This document shows positions 10,501 to 32,825 of a DNA stretch of 64,000 bases, piece by piece. Under the pieces are notes generated by a model. That model was not told the origin of the DNA and did not search any database. It saw nothing but the letters and a program-made list of their open reading frames with translations. Position numbers and translations under genes: made by a program. The DNA lies in NCBI RefSeq assembly GCF_021134715.1, contig NC_060020.1, positions 3,410,001 to 3,474,000 of the forward strand, written 5' to 3'. Position 1 is the stretch's first letter. The number at the start of each line of letters is the position of its first letter. Source of the DNA: Daphnia pulex (lineage: Eukaryota; Arthropoda; Branchiopoda; Diplostraca; Daphniidae).

Positions 10501-13500
10501 TTAAACGTGGCGATAGGTCGGGAGGGAAATTCTTGATAATAGATTCCACCTCGTTATTCATTCCGTCCCGGATGTATCGTCGGTGACACACTCGACTTGC
10601 GTTTGTGTTATCGTAGGTTCAGACTGTTTTTTTTTTCCTTGCTCTTCTTATACACACACACACGAACAAACGTCACTGTCGTGTGCTCAACTTCCGCCTA
10701 TTTGCGTCTTTTTTTCTTTTCCCCCTGGAGTTAATCACGCCGAGAGGAATGTCTTCTCACTGTTGTTGTCATCCCCAAAGTATCTTCTCTCCTCTCCCTT
10801 TTACTCGGCAGACAACAAGAAGATGACGTGATTATATCACATGGGAGGCAACCTGAAACGTGCGTGAGTCAAACTCTCCTTGCAGGTCCTTGAGATCGGG
10901 GCTGCAGAGAGAGAGAGAGGGGAGAGTGTGTGGGTTGGCGTTCGTTCACGGTCTTTTTCGGAATGAATTGCAAAGTCGAAGAAAGAAAAAGAAAATTCCC
11001 AAAAAAAGAAGCCAAGAAAAATCTGAAAATCTCGCGCAGTGACCCGAAAACAATTTCTTCCACCCCATAAAAGAGAAAGAGACAAGAACAGAAAAAAACA
11101 ATAGTAGAAAAGTTAACCACTCTTATAAACTGCTGGCCGTCATTTCACGGTTGTTTTTTATTTTTTTTTATTATTTTTATTTATTTTTGTTGCCGTTATT
11201 AAATGTCCCTTCTTCTTCTTTTTTTCCTATTGTCTCTTTTGAATGGTCGACGAGCGTGGATAGTAGTTTGTGCGGGTCCGTCGGGGCCTTTCTGTTCAGT
11301 CGCGTGAACCGTTGCATTCGGTTTGTATTTTTGGTTGTTTTTACCGTTAGCTTGACCGCACTGTAATATTGCACACACACACCGTACGTGAGTGCAGACT
11401 ACTGTGTGTGTGTGCCGAAAAGAAAAATAACAGATAAATTAGAACACCCAAAACACGCAACAACACCCACAAAAGGGGGACAGCCTTCGTTTGAACGTAT
11501 TGGGTAATGACGTGAGTCAAAAACCGCCGGATGAATCAAAGGGGGGGGGGGACTCTCTCGTCCTTTCACAGTATACATTCTTGGAACCGCATGCACAGGC
11601 TTAGCCGAGAGAGAGAGAGAAGATGGCTGGATTATTTTGATAATCTACAAAGATCGTCTGCCATTTCTTTTTTGGAGTTTATTTGCTTTTTTTCTTAAGG
11701 AGAGAGAGAGAGAGTCGACCTTTATTTTTCATTCATTTGCGCTTATCAAAGCTTTTTAAATAAGGCGTGGTCCGCGGGAGGCCTCTGTTTGGAGTTGGTT
11801 TACGATTACGCCATAGAGTATACACTTACTTAGATTACAATGTCTATTTTATTTATATCATATTTTGAACATGCTATATTCCGCGTTGAGCGATGACTTA
11901 ATCTCAACTTTGGCCGGCGGCGGCGATGATGGCGGGAAATATGAAATACGACACGGGAATCTGGTTTCACGAAATGAGCGCTGGGCGGGCAGAATAAATA
12001 ATTCTGTGGAAACTCCTTCCATCTGGTGGTACGAAAAAAAGGCTTTTTCGAAATTCTTATTATTTCCCTGGAACGAAATTCAAAAATAATCGAAAAGAAA
12101 TCAAACGGAGAGAGAGAGAGAAATATCTTTGGGGATTTTAAAATTGCGAAATAGTCCGGTCGCTGAACGGAACAGATGGTGTCCGATGACTGCCCAGCCT
12201 TAGGTCATCATCATCAAGGCCAAATTCAGCATTCTTGTTTTGTGTAGTAGATGTACCGACAGTTGGAATGACGAGAGCAGTAGACGCCCATCACGCCTTT
12301 TATCATTTCGTTTGTCATCTTTAAATACTTATGGCCATTTTTGTCTAAGTTCTTTTCTTTTTCTTATTTTTGCAGACGAGTTCGTTTACACGGAAGATGA
12401 TGATGGCCTCAGAGCCGGCCAACGGTAATAGCATGCCGTCGGTCATCCTGGGGTCGTCCTCGGCGGTGGGAACCAGTTCGGCCGCCTCGTCCATGTCGAG
12501 CCTGACGCTCCGTGACCAGCAGCACCACGTCGAAGGAGCCAAGGAGCGCAAAGAGCGACAGATGCGTCGCTTGGCCGCCGAAATGGACGACCAACGATCA
12601 AAGTGAGTTTTTGACGAGCAGTTATTGTCACCTTATTCTTTCGTCCCGTCTCCTACCTCTCGTGTGTCGCCCGAAACGTTGACCGTCAATCACGGAAGCA
12701 CTTTGGAATAATAACCGTTCCGCACTGGCGCCTCCAACTTCTCATCTCCTTAATTTTCCAGGGTGTTGTCGTTGTTGAAATTCCAAATGAATTTTTATTT
12801 CTTTCCCCCCCTGGACTGCCGTTTCCGGGACCGAGACAACCGCCCGTCGTTTCTCATCCGGCTGAAAATTCACTTCCCTCTTGACTAGAGAGATATGAAA
12901 TATTCTGTACCTACTAGATCATCATCCCTCATCATATTTCATTGGACTGACTCTCGGCCGCGCGTTGATGTGTCGCCCGTCCGCATTGTGTAGGGATTCC
13001 AGGCTGCACTTTCACGCCGACCGAGACGGGCCGTCCTTTTTTGTTTTCCCCCCCTCACCAAGTTGTGTGCTCTACCGTTCGTTCACCTCATCTATTACCA
13101 TCAGTCAAAATGTGTCGCCCAGCAGCAGCTCTTCTCTCCCTCATCTAACGTTGACTGGAAAACGCTGTCGGCGTGACTGTACACAGCCGCCCAGGCTGTC
13201 TAATGTCGAGCTATAAATAGAATTAGTGTACATGTACCGGGCGACACACAGGTAGACGCACTTGACAGACTTCCCGATTCCATATTATCCGTCATATGAA
13301 TAACATTTATGTGCGACTTTTTTTCTTTTGTCCGTTGGCATCACACAGAGAAAAAAAAAGGAAAAGAAATGCCGGTGGGATTATTATTTGTTCCGAGTCT
13401 CGAATGTCATTACCGTGTGAAAAAAGATTTTAAAAAATGTTTTGACTTTGTTTTTCTTTTGGTTGTTATCGCCGGTCGATATCATCAGATTTGAACGCGA

Positions 13501-16500
13501 CAAGGCGGAAGCGCTGAGCCATCAAAAGGAGGCCATGAACCGCGCCTTTCGCGTCCAGCTGGCCAAATTGCTCAAAGAGAAGGAGGAGCTGCAGCGAAAA
13601 TGTCAGACGCTGCAGTCCAAGGAGCCGAACGGCAAGATCAGCGGCAACGGCCTCGGTAATGCAGCGACCGCCTCGAGCCAAGCGGCCGCCGCCGAAATGC
13701 TGAAATTAATTCACGAAAATTCCATCCTGCGCATCGACAAGAAGAAACAGGAGGAACAACTGCAGGTGAAGGCAACAATCAAATATACACTAAGGATTTA
13801 GGACCGCGTATTATAAGTAGTCGGATGTTCCGTGTGTTGGAAAAAGGAAAAATTTAGAAACCGAATTGCTTGGACCATTATATCTGAGATATGGAAAACC
13901 CCCAAAAATGCTCATCTACATTTTTCTGTTTGTTTCGGTAATTGCTCGCCCAGCTGATGAGGGAAAGTGAGCAGCACCGGTTCGAGAATATGCGCAGTCT
14001 ACTGGACGACAAGGCTCGTGAGTTGATCACGTTCCAGAAGCAGTTGCGGCAACAGATCGCCCGTTTGGTAAGTCGAATCGATTCTTCTTGTTCTTTTTCA
14101 AAACGATTCTTGTTTATCGAAACCTGTAGCAGCCAGACAATTCGAGCTAAAAAATCGATTATTGACAAAACACCTGTGCGCAAAAAAATATCGCGTTCGT
14201 GTTTCGCACCAGAGTATTGCGTGAGGCAAAGTCAGTTCAATGACCAAGAAAAAACATTGAACTGGTTTCTGTACATATCCCTAGTTCAGTTATTATTGTT
14301 TGTAATTGGATTTTATCGAGCGCTATAGTATACTATTAATTACGGCGATTGTAAATTGGATCACGCAGACTCGTATGGCTTCTTGCTCCGTGCTGGAGCG
14401 CAGCAGCTTTCACACGTGACAAGGAGATGAGCGCGAACTTGCCAGGGGTTTGAGCGTGAATCTGCTTAGAGAGACTTTGGGATTTTCCTTTTTTTTGCGC
14501 AATTGCATTCCGTTGTGTGGTAATCCTGTCAGCAACGCCAACGTTAATCCAACGTCTCGTGTCTCACGATCCATTGATGGTAGGAAATGTCCCACCAATC
14601 CCACCTTCACGTGCGCTATTAGAAATTCAAATTTGCCATATTGGAAAAGCGACAATAATCGTAAATTCACTTGCGTCGTGCACGTTGTTGATCCTTACCA
14701 AAAATGGAATTTTCGTATCGACACGCAAAATCTCTTTTCTTTTTCTTGGAAGATTTGGCAAGATTCGAAACTCTTTTCCCTAGCTGGAAGTCGCAATATT
14801 GTACCTATATACCGGATCCATTCGCGGAATCGAATTAAATTCTCTTCTGATTGGCCCATTATCTCCCCCAGGCAAACCTATCGATTCTTTTGATGGGCGA
14901 ATATAACAATCCCCCATCTCAAAAAGGTTTGGCCGGCCCGTGTAATTAGAAATCCAAACGCTATAGCGTGAAAAATTGAAGGTGTTTACGAGAGATTGAA
15001 GCGAGATAGTATCGGATAGCGGCTTGTGATCAATATTACATTGTTTGGCGGCTGCGTCTTGTGTCGGGGCGTGTAATTGTGCGCCGAATTACAATGCGTG
15101 TAGCGTTTCAATCCGCCAGCAACCGACGGACTGAATGATTCTCCCCTTTTTGTTTTTCCGATTCCCATTGGCGATTTTTAAAAATTTCTTGCATGAGATT
15201 GGAAAACATTGGCCGTCGTCCCATAATGATACGAGGAGAGAGAGAGAGAGTGCAAATAATGTTCAACTTTCGCCAAACACTTGGAAATGCTGTGAAGAAT
15301 TTATCTCGGGCGCACCATGTGTGTCTATTACACCTCCTCTCTCTATCCGGTTTCGGGAGCTACTCGAGTCGTTTATATTACACACATGGCCGGGGAAAAA
15401 AAAAACTTTCATTTCACTGAGAAATCTATAACTGTTTTTTTTTGTGTTTGGCTTTTATTTTTAATATGCGCGCCGTGTGCAGTGCGCGTCTGCTGCGTGT
15501 ATTATCCGTTTTTTCTTCTTCGTCCAATTCCCGCGCGCACTTGTTGTAATTTTATTTACGAGTTGTTGACTCGCATTTTTTTTTTGTTTGGCGTGCAGAT
15601 TTCTATTTGCCCTTTACCCTTCTTTTCTTTTTCTTACTTTGAATGGGAATTGCGGGAATGTCATTGGCCAACTTTCAACTCCCGACTGGAGAGGCGCCGG
15701 CTGAATGAGCCGTTTTGACGCCTAGGAATTTGAAGTTTTCGCTCATAGCCTCTTTTTTGAATTTTTTACCTGGACACGTCCGAGAATGAATGAAATGGGA
15801 TAGAATTTTTATCAAAGAGATTCCCGTTAATGTGGCTGCTATGACGTATGGGTAATCGTATTCCATGTGAAGGGAGTGCTGCTGATGTGTATGGGTGTTG
15901 TAATACGCGCATTGCAGGCCCACCTGTCGCGTGAGCCTGCAGAGCCCTATGGTGAAAATCGGCACACCTGCAACGAATTACACGGCCCGTTGACTCTCTC
16001 GGGCGCTTGGAGATTCGACAGATGAACGGAATTACCGCACGTAATCTCAAACCTGTTTTCTGTAATATTTGGTTTTGCGGCCGACTCTTTTTCTTGTTTT
16101 GTTTTGCTTATTCTGGGCGCATTTTCACGAACTCGTCGCTGCCGTTTCCCGCGCCCAACACGGAGCGAACAAATAGCCCAAAAAACAACGAAAGAAAAAA
16201 AAAAAACGATTGTTTTACATTTTGACCGCTAAGAGATGAATCGACTTTCACCACCTGAGGGCATCCCGACCGACCAAAAAAAAATATAGTGGCCGTATAG
16301 TATATGCTATACCTGTGCAACAGGTGAACGAGATATCCTTTTATTTTACATCTTGTATCCAACTTGCGCGGAACCTTAAAACAAAACAAAAAATTGGTTA
16401 ACATTCCGTCGACATAATAAATTCTGCACACCTCCTCCCCCCCCCCCACGCCTTCATCGTTTATTCCTCAATTTCTTGACGGGTCTTACGAGACGCGTAA

Positions 16501-25500: not shown

Positions 25501-28500
25501 TGTTTTCACGAAGTGGGGGAGAAAGGCAAGAATTTATGATTAGAAAAATGCGGAAAAATGTCGGAAGATGAATCAAAATAAGTCCCGTCTTGTCCTCGTT
25601 TCTTTTTTATTTTCCTTTTATTTCCTTTTTAACTTCTTTTTTTTTTTTTCATTTTACGGTGCCGAGGTCGCGACTCGAGAGCACCGCATTAAGACACGAC
25701 ATCCGCCGACGTTCAATAGCGTTAATTGGTGTAAAATGTCATGTTAAATCTTCTTCTGATGACTCCACCAGAAAAAAACAAAACAAAAATAATTCAGTAC
25801 CTCAGACTAAACAAAAGCGGAAAACGTTTCAGGGAAGATTTAACCTACTAACGGGATGGCCCAGCAATCATTTTGTGAAATTTGGCACCTCTTGGGTGTG
25901 TGTGTGTATTCTCCAAGTCGTAAAATGTCGTCTGTGTTCTCAACCAAAATATTAGCAGTAGGATCCGTGGCTAAAATGTTAAATCTAGATTTTTACTTTG
26001 TAAATTCGTTTGTTATATGCGAACATATGGCGGTTGATTTCTTTTTTCTTTCAAATTGACTGATGGTTTTATTTTTCTTTCTTTTTTCTTTCTGTCATAA
26101 TGGAATTGACTTTAGCTCCGCCGGTTAAGTGAGACGGAACGCCAGCAAGGTTCATTGCGCCAGAAGAACAAACAGGTCCTGACCCGCAACGTCCAGTTGG
26201 CTGTCAAGAGCCAAGAATTAGCCGAAACAGTCAAGAATCTCCAGCAACAGCCGGCCGGTGGAAATATGTCGACGGCACCCGACACAACCAATTTGAAGAG
26301 AAGTTTGACGAGACCCAACGTTAATCAACTAGGCTCGCCATCCAAGGCAAGTCTTTTATTATTTTTATTTTATTTTGTTGTTGTTGTTGTTGATCGAGTT
26401 TCACCTGTTCACCTGACATAATAATCAAGCGAGTACCGATCCACCACCCGTTTGTCCACAGCAACGACTCTCAGTTCCCGCAAATAAGGACATATGGTCG
26501 TGTGTAACAATCAAATAATGCACTCCTTTCCTTTCTCCGGCCTTTCTCGCCAAGAGTTTCTCCAGTCTAATATGTAAATCTATTGCACCTTTCTCCACGC
26601 CTTTCACTGTCAGTTTCTTAACTGGCCCGTTGACCATATTCGGGTTGACGCATATTCGTCTACAGCACATGCACAGCAATCAAGCAGCTCAGACACACAC
26701 GGATCTCACCTTGCTGTATCACACACGACTGCGACTGATGATGACCACACGCTGTCGTCATTCGTTACGCTTCAAAGGGTTTCCAGGACTCTGCTGTGTG
26801 CATGGGGATATCCTGACAGAATGGGAACACAAGAGACTGGGGCTGGAGAGAGAAGTACGGCCACTTCACATATTACGTGCAAGGGAGCTCAGCAATATTG
26901 ACAAGTCCGAAGAGATATTTTCTGAGAGTAGAGCAGAGCTTAAAACTCGACTAAGAATCTCCAGCGAGCTGGGCGGGTCCAAGTATTTTTTTGGGGGGAA
27001 TTATTTGAATGAGAACGTGTAAGAACTCGCCCAACATCATCTTTTTTTGGATTGTGTGTGTGTGCGTGTAGAGTTGGACGAATCGCAGTCGGTGTGATGA
27101 AGCTCCACTTTCTTCTAACCGGTTATTTTATTATTTGATAAAACTAGAATGACAAGCAGCGGCGAATGGAGTACGTCCAACAAATCCAGAAATTGCGCAA
27201 AGAGCAACGCTACTACTCCATGTGGGAACTGCCGCCACTGCTCGAAGTCGACACGGACGGCCTGGGCTCTGATGGCAATGCCGACTCGGACGGTTCCTTG
27301 TCTCCGGCCGCTACCTCGGGCGTTACGTCCTGTTCTTCCGACTCGGCCTGGAGCGAGGTATACACACACACAGTCAAATAAGAAAACACCAAAAATCTTG
27401 TTGTTCTTTTTTACTGTCTCCTTATTTTCATGTGCCCATTAAGGTTTATGTTGTTGTTGGCTCGATGGTTTTTGACCGTTGAACCACTACTTTTTCCCAA
27501 TGGCAGATATTCCAACTGCCAAACAAGCGTTTATTTTTTTTTTAAACGACTGGCGTGTTTTAGTTATGGCTCATATGGGAGGAAACCGCGAGAATGAGAC
27601 TTTTAAAAAACGGCCATGTAATTACGAAAGAGGCTAGTCGTTCCGCCGAGCCTTCATTGATTTTTCTTATATTTTTTTTATTATTTCACCAAAGTGTTGG
27701 GTAGATTGGATTCAGATTCGGCAAAAACGTTGAAAAAAAAGTCAGTTCATCTTATACGCACGGCTAGCAATTTCAAGCCCCGTGCATAATTCGAATTTCA
27801 CGAATATCAGCGGAAACTGGTTCCAGTTTTTTTCTTCTTTCCCCTTTTATTATTTTGATCGATTGTGTTGGCGTGATGAATTGGAATTCAGATTTCACCG
27901 GTTTATACGACGGTTCGAGGAAACTGTTGTGCTGTGTGTACCAACTGCATAGTAGTACTCAAGGAGATTAGATTGATGATTAGATTGAATTGTAGTCTAC
28001 AAATAATCCTTTATTAGAAATTCTTAGCTCGGCGACGTCGTCTGCTTCGCTTTGTTGAACATTCCTAGTTTCACATGATTGTAAATTTTCTTCTCCATTT
28101 TCTCTTTCTTTTTATATTTTTTGTAACTACAAAAGGACACGCGACGGGAATTGGAAGTGTTGTTCTCACAGCTGTCGCGGGAGCATTCCGATTTGCAGCG
28201 CAACTACCAACTGCTCCACGAGAAGTTGCGCCAGCTGACGTGTTTTTCCGACGCCGACGCGGCCAATGTCAACTACGCCACCCTGCAGGCTGACTACAAC
28301 GCGGCCAGAGCCCGAATCCGTGACCTGGAGGAGATCCTGCAGCTGAAAAACAATCGCGAACGAGAGGCCAGTGACGGAGCCAACGCCGGACGCCCGACGG
28401 TCGTTCCTTCTCTGCTGGAAATCCAGGCCAAATTCGTTCGTGAGAAGCACATCCAGCAAACGCAGATGGCCATCCTGGTCAAACGTCTCGAGGAGGCCAA

Positions 28501-31500
28501 AGACAGGCACCAATCTGTCCAGGCGGAGCTGAACGAAGCGCGAGATCAGAACGAGTTGCTCGAGTTCCGCATTCTCGAATTGGAAGAGATCCAAGAAAGG
28601 GTGCGCTTATTATTTATTATTTTGGTTTTGGAGACTATTTAGCCACGCTCGCCGGGTTTCTTTAATTGAATAGTTTCGCATTTGTGCATTTTTGAATAAT
28701 AGGCGCCGTCACAGTGCTCGACCGATCAGCGCGATCGTAAGGATGTCTGCACCGACACGGATTCGGATGACGTATCGGTCGGAGATTCGGGCATTACGTC
28801 GCTCGCTTCACTCATGGTCGAATGTCCGTCACCAATCTTGCCCAGAAGCCCGTGCAGCAGCGGATCGTCACTGGACTCTGACTACCTGGTAATTGATTTT
28901 ATTTTTAAAATTTTCCAGCTGATTTCGACATCTTTTGGGGGAAATTGAGTGTCGGCAATTGAGTCATTGTTGTAACGGTGTATTTTGCGGCGTTCCTTAG
29001 GGCGAAAAGATCTCGTCGGTCAAAGCAGAACTGCAATTGATGGTCTCCTCGCTAAATGATCCGTCTCAGAAAACCGTGCTGGCCCAGCTTCAGGCGCTGT
29101 TGGGCGTCTGCCAGTCTCGACTGGCCCACAAGAGTCCCGTCGCCAGTGAGACTTCCAACTGGGACTGGCAGCTGCAGGAGAGTGGCATCTTCGAAGAGGA
29201 CCACCATCATTCCACCGATGGATCCACTCAGACGGACGCCGTCGAGTGCGATGGATACAATGGCGATGTCAGCATCCGGGTGACGGTCCCGTTGCCTCTT
29301 TGCGGCCGAGTGACCGAAGACAAGGAAGTTCAAATGTCTCCCGCCGAGTTGGAAGATAAATCCGTGCAGACGGCAATGACGGATGTCCAGGATTTTGCGG
29401 TCCAAACTGATTTGATTGTCTGTCATTCCGCCGGCGCAGAAGAAAAGTCCTATCGAGATCAGGGCGTTCAGTTCTACGAGGAACGGCCCATGTTTGCGGA
29501 AGAAGATTCCCAGACGGATGGGCAGGTGATGACCCTGGAGGAATTCCGCGACGTTGAGAGCTACTACGTCCAGCAAATTGAAATCCTGCAGAAGGAGAAG
29601 GCCAGCCATCGCAAAAAGTTCCAGGCCAGTCGGGACGAAACGACGAAATCGGTGCAGCAGCTGGAACTGTTGGGCCGCCAGTTTCAAGAGCGCGAGCGGC
29701 AATTCGAAGAGATTTTGCAGAAGAACTGCCGCGCATTCGAGCGGGAACTCGAAACGGCCCGCGAACTCAACAACAACGAGCTCTCCACGCTCAAGGAATG
29801 TCTCCAGCTGGTCTGGCACGAAGTCAAAGACTACGCCAATGTGACGGACATGCCCAAAACGTCGGTCATGGAGTTCACTCAGGCGCTGATCAGTTCGCTT
29901 CACGGAATTTGCAACGAGCTGGGCCAACTGAGAGTCCGTGTAGTCGATCTCGCCGATATGGAGCAAGCCTTCCAGACGACGTTGCGACAGGCAGACGGGC
30001 TCGTCCATCACATGGAAGAGAAGCATTTGCAGCGCATCAGAGAGCTGGAACATATAGAACACGAACTAAGGATCCAGTTGAATCATCCGACTGGAAGTCA
30101 CCAAAGCTACGACATGGATGGAAGTCTCGAAATCAAAATACAAGGTATGGCGCAATTCGATCTAATTGCCTGAGTGATGGCGTAATCTAAGAAATACGTT
30201 CTAATAATTCGATAAAATACTTAGAACTGGAGCAGGAGAAGGACGCTCTGTCGTTGCAGGTCGGCAAGTGCCAAGAGTTGGAAGACTATTGCCAACGACT
30301 TCACGGCCGGCTGGAAGAGTATGAGCAACGTGAACGAAGCTTGCATCAAGCCGTCCAAGATACGGAACGCCGCTTTTCCACCAGGTTTGATCAAAGCGTT
30401 TTCACAGATTGTTTTCCGTGATATAACTCTTTTAACGGGCTTTTTTTTTACTTTGATCCAGAGAGCAAAGATATCGCGAAGAAATTCAGTTGATGAAAAC
30501 AGAGCTGGACAAGTGTCGCGAAAATGAAGCGACCTGGCGTCAACGACTGGAGCAGAGGGACAGTCAATTGGGCCTCATGAGGAACGAACTGGAGGCCGAA
30601 CAAAAGACCATCGCCAGTTTAGAGTTAGAAGTCAAGGAGTTGCAATCCAAATTAGATAAGGACGACACCTCCTTCAGAAACGAGGTCAGTTGCCTAGCAG
30701 AACTAATCGCCCGTTGTTGAGTCAGTCCAATGAAATTTCTAATTATCTTGTTCAAAATAGGTGACCAAGTTGCGTTCGCAGCTCACTACCTCTCTGGCGC
30801 AGCTGAACGAGCTCGAGTCACTTAACTGCCAACTTCGCGAGAAGATCGTCGAATACCAGAACACGATTTACTCTCTGCAGAGGAGCCTAGACGAGAAGAG
30901 TTGCCAAAATGGCAATCTAATGGCCGAAAATAACAGACTGGCCCAAGCTCAGATGGAAATGATGAGCATGTCTATGGTCGCCATGGGTAAGTTGATTTTC
31001 ATCAATATTAATTGGTTCGACTGAATCCCCTTTTGTAATTTTACCATACGTATTTTCTTATTTGACAGCCAAACCGCTAACTGAGGAGCTGCTAGAAATC
31101 GAGTCGGATGAAGGCTGCATGTCACCCGAACCTGTCGCCGCCACGAGCGAAACCGCTGCTACGCTGGACGACTTTCAAGAAATTTCATTGCCCACGACGC
31201 CGACCGTTGTGGACGGCTGCAACAACGTCTTTGAGGAACATTTCAAAGTGCTCGAGTCGTTGGAGAGTTATCTGGAAACGCAGCATCTGACTGGAGCGAC
31301 GGCCGAAGATAACGACGAGTCGGGAATTTCCACATCACCTTCGATTCACGAGGTAAAAAACCGATTGTCGGGGTTGAAGTTAAAATGTCAATTAACGTTT
31401 GTATTGTTTCGGCTTTCGCAGAACGAGAATTTTGCGCTGTTGGAAGCTCAGTTGTCGCAGCTTCGAACCGAGAAGCACTTTTTGCTCAATTCGGTTGTCA

Positions 31501-32825
31501 ACAGTCAGAAGAAAGATGAGGTCATTCAAATCTTGGTCGACCAACTCAAATACAACGCGCCCCGTCAATACCTGATTGAAACGGCGGCGCATATCCGCAA
31601 GATCGCCACTAACGGCGACTACGACGCGAACCAACATCGCACGCATGACAAAGATATCGATCGCGTTTGCTCCATGCTGGAAGCCCCGATTGATCTGGTA
31701 AAAGATTTGAAATAATTTCGTCTTATTATGCATTCAATTTTCTTTGTTCATATTCTTCATCTTTATTTTTCGTCTTCATCTTCTTTTCTTCTGGTTTTAT
31801 GTCTGCCTCCTCTCTGTCGCAGAAATCACTCGTCTAAATCTCTCTATATCTCGTTTCGGGTGATGGCGATTTTCGTTTCTATTTTTGACCAAAAATTATG
31901 TAACCACTCACGGCAATGGTACGGACTGACTATAAACCCATGCCCATCCTTTCTTTGTTTCTAACCACCGCTATGTGTGTAACGAGTCCAGACATGTGTG
32001 TGAACTGCACACCTTTCGCCATCTCCATTCAACATTTGAGATTACGATGCCTCGTATTTTTTTCAGACCGACGTAACGACTGAGGGTTGTAGCCTCATAT
32101 CACAACAGCCCTCGGCGTCTCCTAACTGCAATTATGATGTCGTCATCCCCCACAATAAAGTAGTCCGCCGCCAGACAACTGTAACCGTTCTGCCCGAGGA
32201 GGATCCGCTTCTTTCCCCACGTAAATATAATAAAAGCTAATTTTCGTTATCGATGAGGAAATAGCCTAATATGGACCTCACTTTCGTTTGCAGCCTCCGA
32301 TCTTAAAATTACACGCAAGGTCGGCAATGATGGACTTGTGATAGCCTGGTTACCTTCACCAGACTCTGAATGCGTCGGATACCTGGTAAATATCTAAAAT
32401 CTTTAACAAGAGTAAAAAGTAATTTTGAAAATGTCTTTTTTATTAAACAGATCTGCGTAAACGGCCAAGAAGCTCATCGTGGGCGAAACGCCCAGAGGAC
32501 GAAAGCAGTGTTGAGCGGATTGGACTTGCATAGCGAGATGGATATTTGTATTTATTCGTTGTCCGTCGACGGGCTCGTTTCCAGCCCCACAACTACTGTC
32601 TACTTGCCCGACGAGCGACTGGCTGTTGGCGCTCATCAAGGACATGCCGGCGACTCGGAATCGGCTGAGCCGACCCAGGCCGTCGTCGAGGTGAGCAGTC
32701 CGCGCGAGGTGGTCGTTCAGACATTTTATACCAACTCATCCGTTACCGTCAGGTCATCGCGCAGGGTTATCGCTCCTGCTGCCCACGTATCCCGCTTACC
32801 ACACCGGCCGACCTGCGTGCCTTGA
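4591..32825 (+). CDS. JAKMIP-like coiled-coil protein with C-terminal FN3-like domain
   Basis: Nineteen coding exons join without frame break to 1644 aa: 4591-4608, 12376-12602, 13489-13765, 13954-14067, 19327-19467, 24903-25034, 26116-26346, 27148-27357, 28136-28600, 28703-28888, 29001-30144, 30225-30384, 30462-30684, 30761-30986, 31069-31352, 31422-31697, 32067-32220, 32294-32385, 32451-32825. Most of the protein is predicted coiled coil. The stretch EARDQNELLEFRILELEE (about residues 584-601) and KDRVISHLESELRVQTG match Janus kinase and microtubule-interacting proteins as I remember them; vertebrate members are about 630-850 aa and link microtubules, kinesin and signalling receptors. Residues about 740-842 carry six TQT/VQT-like motifs. 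Residues about 1490-1575 form a fibronectin III-like fold (IAWLPSPDSECVGYLICVNG) resembling those of RIM-binding proteins. The hydrophobic C-terminal tail of vertebrate JAKMIPs is absent. The first exon codes only six residues, so the start is less sure; Met at 12397 is an alternative. Confidence 0.82.
4609..12375 (+). other. First intron of the JAKMIP-like gene (7.8 kb)
   Basis: No supported gene on either strand; open frames here are short and low-complexity. The DNA is rich in T-runs, TG, CTT and GA microsatellites and CTG/CAG triplets. Its size, beside neighbouring introns of 50-600 bp, suggests enhancers or alternative first exons, but none can be fixed from the sequence. Confidence 0.55.
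14068..19326 (+). other. Large intron 4 of the JAKMIP-like gene (5.3 kb)
   Basis: No supported coding sequence. It carries poly-C and GA/TG microsatellites and a 20-bp palindrome at 16707-16726. The acceptor has a tandem AG (GAGCAG): the exon can start at 19327 or 19330, adding or dropping one Gln without a frame change. Confidence 0.6.
16707..16726. promoter_or_regulatory. 20-bp perfect palindrome centred on a CRE
   Basis: AGAGTTTGACGTCAAACTCT equals its own reverse complement over 20 bases, and the central eight are the CREB/ATF consensus TGACGTCA. It sits in intron 4 of the JAKMIP-like gene. It may be an intronic bZIP enhancer site; function is inferred from the motif. Confidence 0.45.
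21712..21724 (+). repeat. Poly-C run of 13
   Basis: An uninterrupted run of 13 C in a pyrimidine-rich intron segment. Its length is likely to vary between alleles or assemblies. Confidence 0.8.
24016..24039 (+). repeat. (GAA)8 microsatellite
   Basis: Eight uninterrupted GAA units in intron 5 of the JAKMIP-like gene. Confidence 0.85.
25257..25409. repeat. Inverted (CAA)n / (TTG)n pair, possible hairpin
   Basis: A (CAA) tract at 25257-25279 is followed about 100 bp later by a (TTG) tract at 25383-25409 with one interruption. The two are complementary, so the intron RNA between the exons ending 25034 and starting 26116 could fold into a stem of roughly 20 bp. Folding is inferred from complementarity only. 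Confidence 0.5.
26347..27147 (+). other. GC-AG intron of the JAKMIP-like gene
   Basis: The exon 26116-26346 ends TCCAAG and the intron opens GCAAGT, the typical strong form of a GC donor; the acceptor is AAACTAG at 27147. No GT donor near it keeps frame. The reading frame continues in phase 0 into the exon at 27148. Confidence 0.65.

Follow-up and report, generated by a model that had tools for sequence, protein, structure and literature searches.

A candidate multivalent LC8 docking region in a JAKMIP-like protein of Daphnia pulex

Results

A JAKMIP-like gene and its array exon

The window, a stretch of 64,000 nucleotides from Daphnia pulex (contig C4:3410001-3474000), contains a JAKMIP-like gene on its forward strand. 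Fourteen exons with phase-consistent splice sites, from 24903 to the stop at 32825 (+) in window coordinates, join into 1,385 residues. Exons between about 12602 and 24903 are mapped partly, so the residue numbers given here hold for a partial gene model. Possible N-terminal exons of the gene lie at 12376-14070 (+), more than 10 kb upstream of the mapped ones; the upstream exon at about 12376-12602 (+) has a methionine codon at 12397. The intron at 26347-27147 (+), required for phase, starts with a GC donor, identified by eye after 26346, and ends with an AG acceptor.

The gene has the CC3 domain that marks the JAKMIP family. The JAKMIP_CC3 profile (PF16034) matches the spliced model best at residues 289-348 (E 1.7e-14; 54.4 bits versus a cut-off of 30.2), and a 168-residue part of the gene with an E-value of 4e-18. 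A profile search of the whole genome (133 Mb, 13 contigs) for CC3 gave two pieces above the cut-off, both from this gene, the sole locus found. From the other end, 149 residues of the C-terminal part match fibronectin FN3 domains (PDB sequence search, best E 7.3e-6), and a RIMBP2-like Pfam domain near the C-terminus is sub-threshold (20.4 bits versus a cut-off of 27). We know of no vertebrate JAKMIP with an FN3-type domain and a RIMBP2-like match at its end.

The exon studied here lies within an open stretch at 29001-30173 (+), whose translation includes all six strings described below. A genome search found it in single copy, with no paralogue elsewhere in the genome. Among solved structures it had two PDB matches, with E-values of 0.21 and 0.82, which we judged meaningless; an NCBIfam search with two exons gave no match. 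One scan of viral contigs returned a single stretch fitting a pattern and confirmed no relative. An antisense open frame of 337 residues crosses the exon at 29052-30065 (-) and is probably a by-product of codon usage.

Six short motifs in one reading frame

A first-pass annotation had pointed to six TQT/VQT-type strings within one exon of this gene, and this is borne out: they share a single reading frame and, written as 8-residue motifs, extend from 29214 to 29519 (Table 1). The codons of their central glutamines start at 29229, 29331, 29367, 29403, 29469 and 29511, giving Q-to-Q spacings of 34, 12, 12, 22 and 14 residues; successive motifs are separated by linkers of 26, 4, 4, 14 and 6 residues. 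Position -4 is D in five of the six sites and E in the remaining one. Sites 1 and 2 are separated in part by a hydrophobic piece, SIRVTVPLPLCG.

In pairwise comparison, the 24-base sequences of the sites are identical at 7 to 14 of 24 bases and use mixed synonymous codons. A recent tandem DNA duplication was rejected on these grounds as the origin of the array, the codons differing from site to site.

Table 1. Features of the JAKMIP-like gene around the array, in window coordinates. Sites are named by their anchor glutamine; matrix and flank are the two motif scores defined in the text.
Feature	Position	Strand	Basis
JAKMIP CC3 exon	28136..28600	+	Pfam PF16034
Exon carrying the array	29001..30144	+	AG acceptor, GT donor, phase matches neighbouring exons
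Acidic low-confidence linker with the six sites, probably disordered	29127..29522	+	pLDDT <50, charge
Site 1, TDGSTQTD, Q485	29214..29237	+	matrix 14.5; flank -2.08; small G at -3
Site 2, EDKEVQMS, Q519	29316..29339	+	matrix 10.6; flank 4.64
Site 3, EDKSVQTA, Q531	29352..29375	+	matrix 14.7; flank 3.69
Site 4, QDFAVQTD, Q543	29388..29411	+	matrix 12.9; flank 2.50
Site 5, RDQGVQFY, Q565, doubtful	29454..29477	+	matrix 7.2 (below the binders' 10% quantile of 8.5); flank 3.19
Site 6, AEEDSQTD, Q579, weak	29496..29519	+	matrix 3.1; flank -0.04
Long predicted helices, exon residues 179-279 and 286-361	29535..30083	+	single-sequence AlphaFold2, ten-residue means mostly 54-75
Last two exons, FN3-type domain and C-terminal tail	32294..32825	+	PDB sequence search, Pfam

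Scoring of the sites as LC8 motifs

The published LC8 consensus is given as [D/S]-4 K-3 X [T/V/I] Q [T/V] [D/E] (PMC3078936). We scored the sites with a log-odds matrix of our own, distinct from LC8Pred, built from 28 published LC8 binder 8-mers: PMC6607443 supplied 11 distinct motifs through its Table 1 and 7 through its Table 2, PMC5963919 another 6 (Table 2), and LCA5, Bmf, gephyrin and myosin Va one each. Six weak or off-consensus peptides were excluded and scored separately, reaching -5.0 to 12.3. As non-binders we used 26 of 43 peptides from PMC6607443 (16 of 31 in Table 1, 10 of 12 in Table 2); the dropped rows mostly have no QT or QV anchor, and PLK1, DDX1 and BSN-shift (all with QT) and a second SCRN2 peptide were also omitted. 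The background frequencies, like the scales for hydropathy, TOP-IDP and helix, were entered by hand.

Leave-one-out matrix scores of the binders centre on a median of 13.4, their 10% quantile being 8.5. For the 26 anchor-bearing non-binders the median is 9.0, and their best score, 15.8, lies above every site here, so the matrix alone separates the two classes poorly. In PMC6607443, 7 of 19 matrix-predicted peptides bound LC8. A second, flank score considers only the flanking positions, in property bins that we defined ourselves, and compares binders with non-binders; its leave-one-out AUC is 0.76.

Four sites reach at least 10 in the matrix (Q531, Q485, Q543 and Q519), all inside 66 residues. 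By flank, Q519 is outscored by none of the 26 non-binders, Q531 and Q565 by 2 each, Q543 by 3, Q579 by 7 and Q485 by 14. Judged by their letters, Q519, Q531 and Q543 look like LC8 binders by both scores. Site 3 is the nearest of the six to the natural consensus peptide DKSTQTD; the VQM anchor of site 2 occurs in none of the 28 training binders. Q485 and Q565 each pass one score, the matrix and the flank score, respectively: Q485 has a TQT anchor and D at +2, yet a small residue at -3, and Q565 has F at +1 and Y at +2, a position where LC8 motifs poorly tolerate hydrophobic residues (PMC6607443). Q579 combines an SQT anchor with repeated negative charge; we rate it as weak because, among the five SQT peptides in Table 1 of PMC6607443, one (TOGARAM1) was a weak binder and four were non-binders. 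Of the six motifs first proposed, three to four thus score as good LC8 motifs and two to three are weak or doubtful.

Weak sites that adjoin strong ones can still contribute, by analogy with two described cases: the ASCIZ QT3 peptide is reported as too weak to measure alone, yet occupied in longer constructs (PMC5963919), and the CQS site of LCA5 as unverifiable as a peptide while binding within the protein (PMC9481538).

Elsewhere in the protein, one more match reaches at least 10 in the matrix, RHQSVQAE at Q320. It is one residue off the MAST1 training peptide and falls within the CC3 stretch, so that it is probably inaccessible to LC8. After the FN3-type domain there is an isolated VQT string, REVVVQTF (32703-32726, +; Q codon 32718, Q1351); VVVQTF scores 6.2 in the matrix and a favourable 4.61 by flank, with a hydrophobic residue at +2.

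Comparison with chance

An acidic stretch rich in V, T and Q might yield such a cluster by chance, and the 130 residues 470-599 contain 10 Q, 14 V, 10 T and 14 D. We consider this highly improbable: four matrix matches of at least 10 were equalled in 0 of 40,000 shuffles of the same composition, and 20,000 shuffles of the whole exon never reached that number either. The pattern [DE]xx[TVIS]Q[TVMFIC], drawn up after the sites were known, has six matches against a shuffle mean of 0.19 and was equalled in 0 of 50,000 shuffles; the stricter core of the published consensus, [DS]xx[TVI]Q[TV], has three, equalled in 1 of 50,000.

The genome itself provided a second background, twenty 10-kb pieces of contig C4 with 1,035 open reading frames of at least 60 residues. 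Here, 8 of 86,841 8-mers reach 10 or more, and none of the 1,035 frames (200 kb in all) has two such matches within 60 residues. Only 242 of these frames are 100 residues or longer and 22 are 200 or longer; many of them are therefore likely to be non-coding.

Surroundings of the array

The array had been described as acidic, probably disordered and placed between coiled coils. Its acidity is plain, with a net charge of -22 over residues 470-599. We ran AlphaFold2 on the exon alone, as a single sequence (mean pLDDT 54.2). Helices were predicted at exon residues 2-16, 21-42, 179-279 and 286-361; pLDDT is below 50 at exon residues 43-174, corresponding to protein residues 451-582 with all six sites, and at 361-381. 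Disorder around the array and helices beside it are thereby indicated by the model. Since only one sequence was supplied, the low pLDDT is supporting evidence at most. TOP-IDP, averaged per 30 residues, speaks against the disorder, with no separation between the linker (0.11-0.24) and its helical flanks (0.07-0.23).

Inside the linker, the model places low-confidence helices at exon residues 114-117 and 122-135 (protein 522-525 and 530-543); the latter spans the anchors of sites 3 and 4. Five residues lie between the end of the last site, at residue 581, and the start of the first long helix, at 587. The two long helices are a probable coiled coil.

LC8 in the same genome

A canonical LC8 gene with at least two exons is located on contig C8. 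Its joined product of 89 residues is identical to PDB 1rhw_A at 88 positions, the sole difference being at residue 2; judged by this identity, the organism encodes an LC8 whose groove is unaltered. A divergent second match to Dynein_light (64.2 bits) lies at C4:2227668-2227829, about 1.2 Mb from the window.

Discussion

A proposed model of LC8 docking

Altogether, we favour, with moderate confidence, reading the stretch as a multivalent LC8 (DYNLL) docking region through which LC8 would staple two JAKMIP-like chains into a stiff in-register duplex. The multivalent docking of the first-pass annotation remains the best reading, given a consensus match far above chance, short linkers, the acidic low-confidence setting and the presence of an LC8 gene; the tie to dynein proposed with it has less support. 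LC8 binding, the number of LC8 bound, the parallel register and the stiffening are what we infer from these features.

Two parallel chains would be joined by coiled coils on both sides of the linker, each laying the same motif as a β-strand in one groove of an LC8 dimer. Q519, Q531 and Q543, with their 4-residue linkers, would be the main sites; Q485, Q565 and Q579 would be further or weaker ones. Two to four or more LC8 dimers would then stack along the linker, stiffening the flexible hinge into an in-register duplex and strengthening the dimer. Q519-Q531-Q543 on the one hand and Q565-Q579 on the other may stack LC8 closely, because their linkers of 4, 4 and 6 residues resemble distances tolerated in ASCIZ and LCA5: ASCIZ linkers of 6 and 9 residues are described as not associated with heterogeneous binding, those of 3, 30 and 41 as associated with it (PMC10046861), and in LCA5 two sites 4 residues apart are reported as both functional in the protein, at a distance judged enough for two LC8 (PMC9481538).

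The strings might instead serve another partner, or form a phosphorylation cluster with acidic residues after T or S, with no binding by LC8. Residues at +1 and +2 deviate at several sites, those at +1 being unusual in sites 2 and 5, and the most constant features are the acidic residue at -4 and the anchor Q. We know of no other reader of a D-x-x-V/T-Q-T/x string. The two constant features, however, also belong to the LC8 motif as published (PMC3078936), and we hold this explanation to be unlikely.

Among readings in which LC8 does bind, the main rival is that it bridges separate dimers or oligomers into larger assemblies, as with LCA5 or 53BP1. LCA5 is described with two LC8 sites between two coiled coils, where LC8 drives higher oligomers (PMC9481538, PMC12017986), and the JAKMIP-like protein is laid out in much the same way, with a larger number of sites. 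Short linkers would nevertheless favour in-register duplexes, to extrapolate from ASCIZ (PMC10046861), and we hold such bridging to be rather unlikely here.

LC8 is also a dynein subunit, and microtubules and kinesin I are reported binding partners of JAKMIP1 (PMC12732012); the array might thus recruit the dynein motor through LC8, with the protein as a dynein cargo adaptor. Clients, however, normally occupy both LC8 grooves, and a 2025 review describes one observed two-client complex, of Bim and Bmf (PMC12017986); different clients are not bridged, according to a 2025 AlphaFold study (PMC12057147). We therefore regard the adaptor role as quite improbable. The first-pass annotation had offered dynein or LC8-driven dimerisation: because both grooves usually hold copies of one client, the dimerisation half is favoured and the dynein half is less supported. 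An LC8 array alone establishes no dynein connection of the protein.

Implications

In a literature search with most subscription papers outside its reach, we found no paper on LC8 and JAKMIP together; for DYNLL and JAKMIP there were, by title, only gene-list or unrelated papers and none on LC8 docking. Multivalent LC8 clients are already known as a kind, so the array is a probable new member, and the JAKMIP-like protein a probable new client.

More speculatively, and with low confidence, arthropod JAKMIP-like proteins (possibly also nematode ones) may be LC8-stapled scaffolds, in which graded strong and weak sites would set stiffness and oligomerisation, and the LC8 level would control a scaffold at microtubules or the ciliary base. 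A list of ciliary-gate genes includes C14H10.2, the nematode JAKMIP3 orthologue (PMC10917524). If LC8 docking is true, the JAKMIP family enters the LC8-organised coiled-coil scaffolds, and a poorly understood family acquires a concrete dimerisation switch. The study of multivalent LC8 assembly would also gain a new array whose sites differ in strength.

Comparison with known systems

The protein shares the CC3 domain (Pfam PF16034) with vertebrate JAKMIP1, JAKMIP2 and JAKMIP3; to our knowledge, its part after CC3 is unlike theirs. Binding to microtubules and Janus kinases is described as a feature of the family (PMC12732012).

LCA5 (lebercilin) resembles it in layout, having a VQT site and an off-consensus site, 4 residues apart, between coiled coils, as described in PMC9481538. 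It differs in having two sites versus four to six here, in belonging to an unrelated family, and in that its binding is shown, whereas ours is predicted. Nup159 of yeast, where LC8 is called Dyn2, has a disordered stretch with five consecutive LC8 sites, according to PMC5963919; it is a nuclear pore protein with shown binding, and the likeness concerns the number of sites and their setting, not their letters. ASCIZ is a zinc-finger transcription factor, and the accounts of it cited here mention no coiled coils beside its array. With the seven sites of Drosophila ASCIZ, as these accounts describe them (PMC10046861, PMC5963919), the present array has in common a mixture of stronger, weak and off-consensus sites, joined by both short and long linkers.
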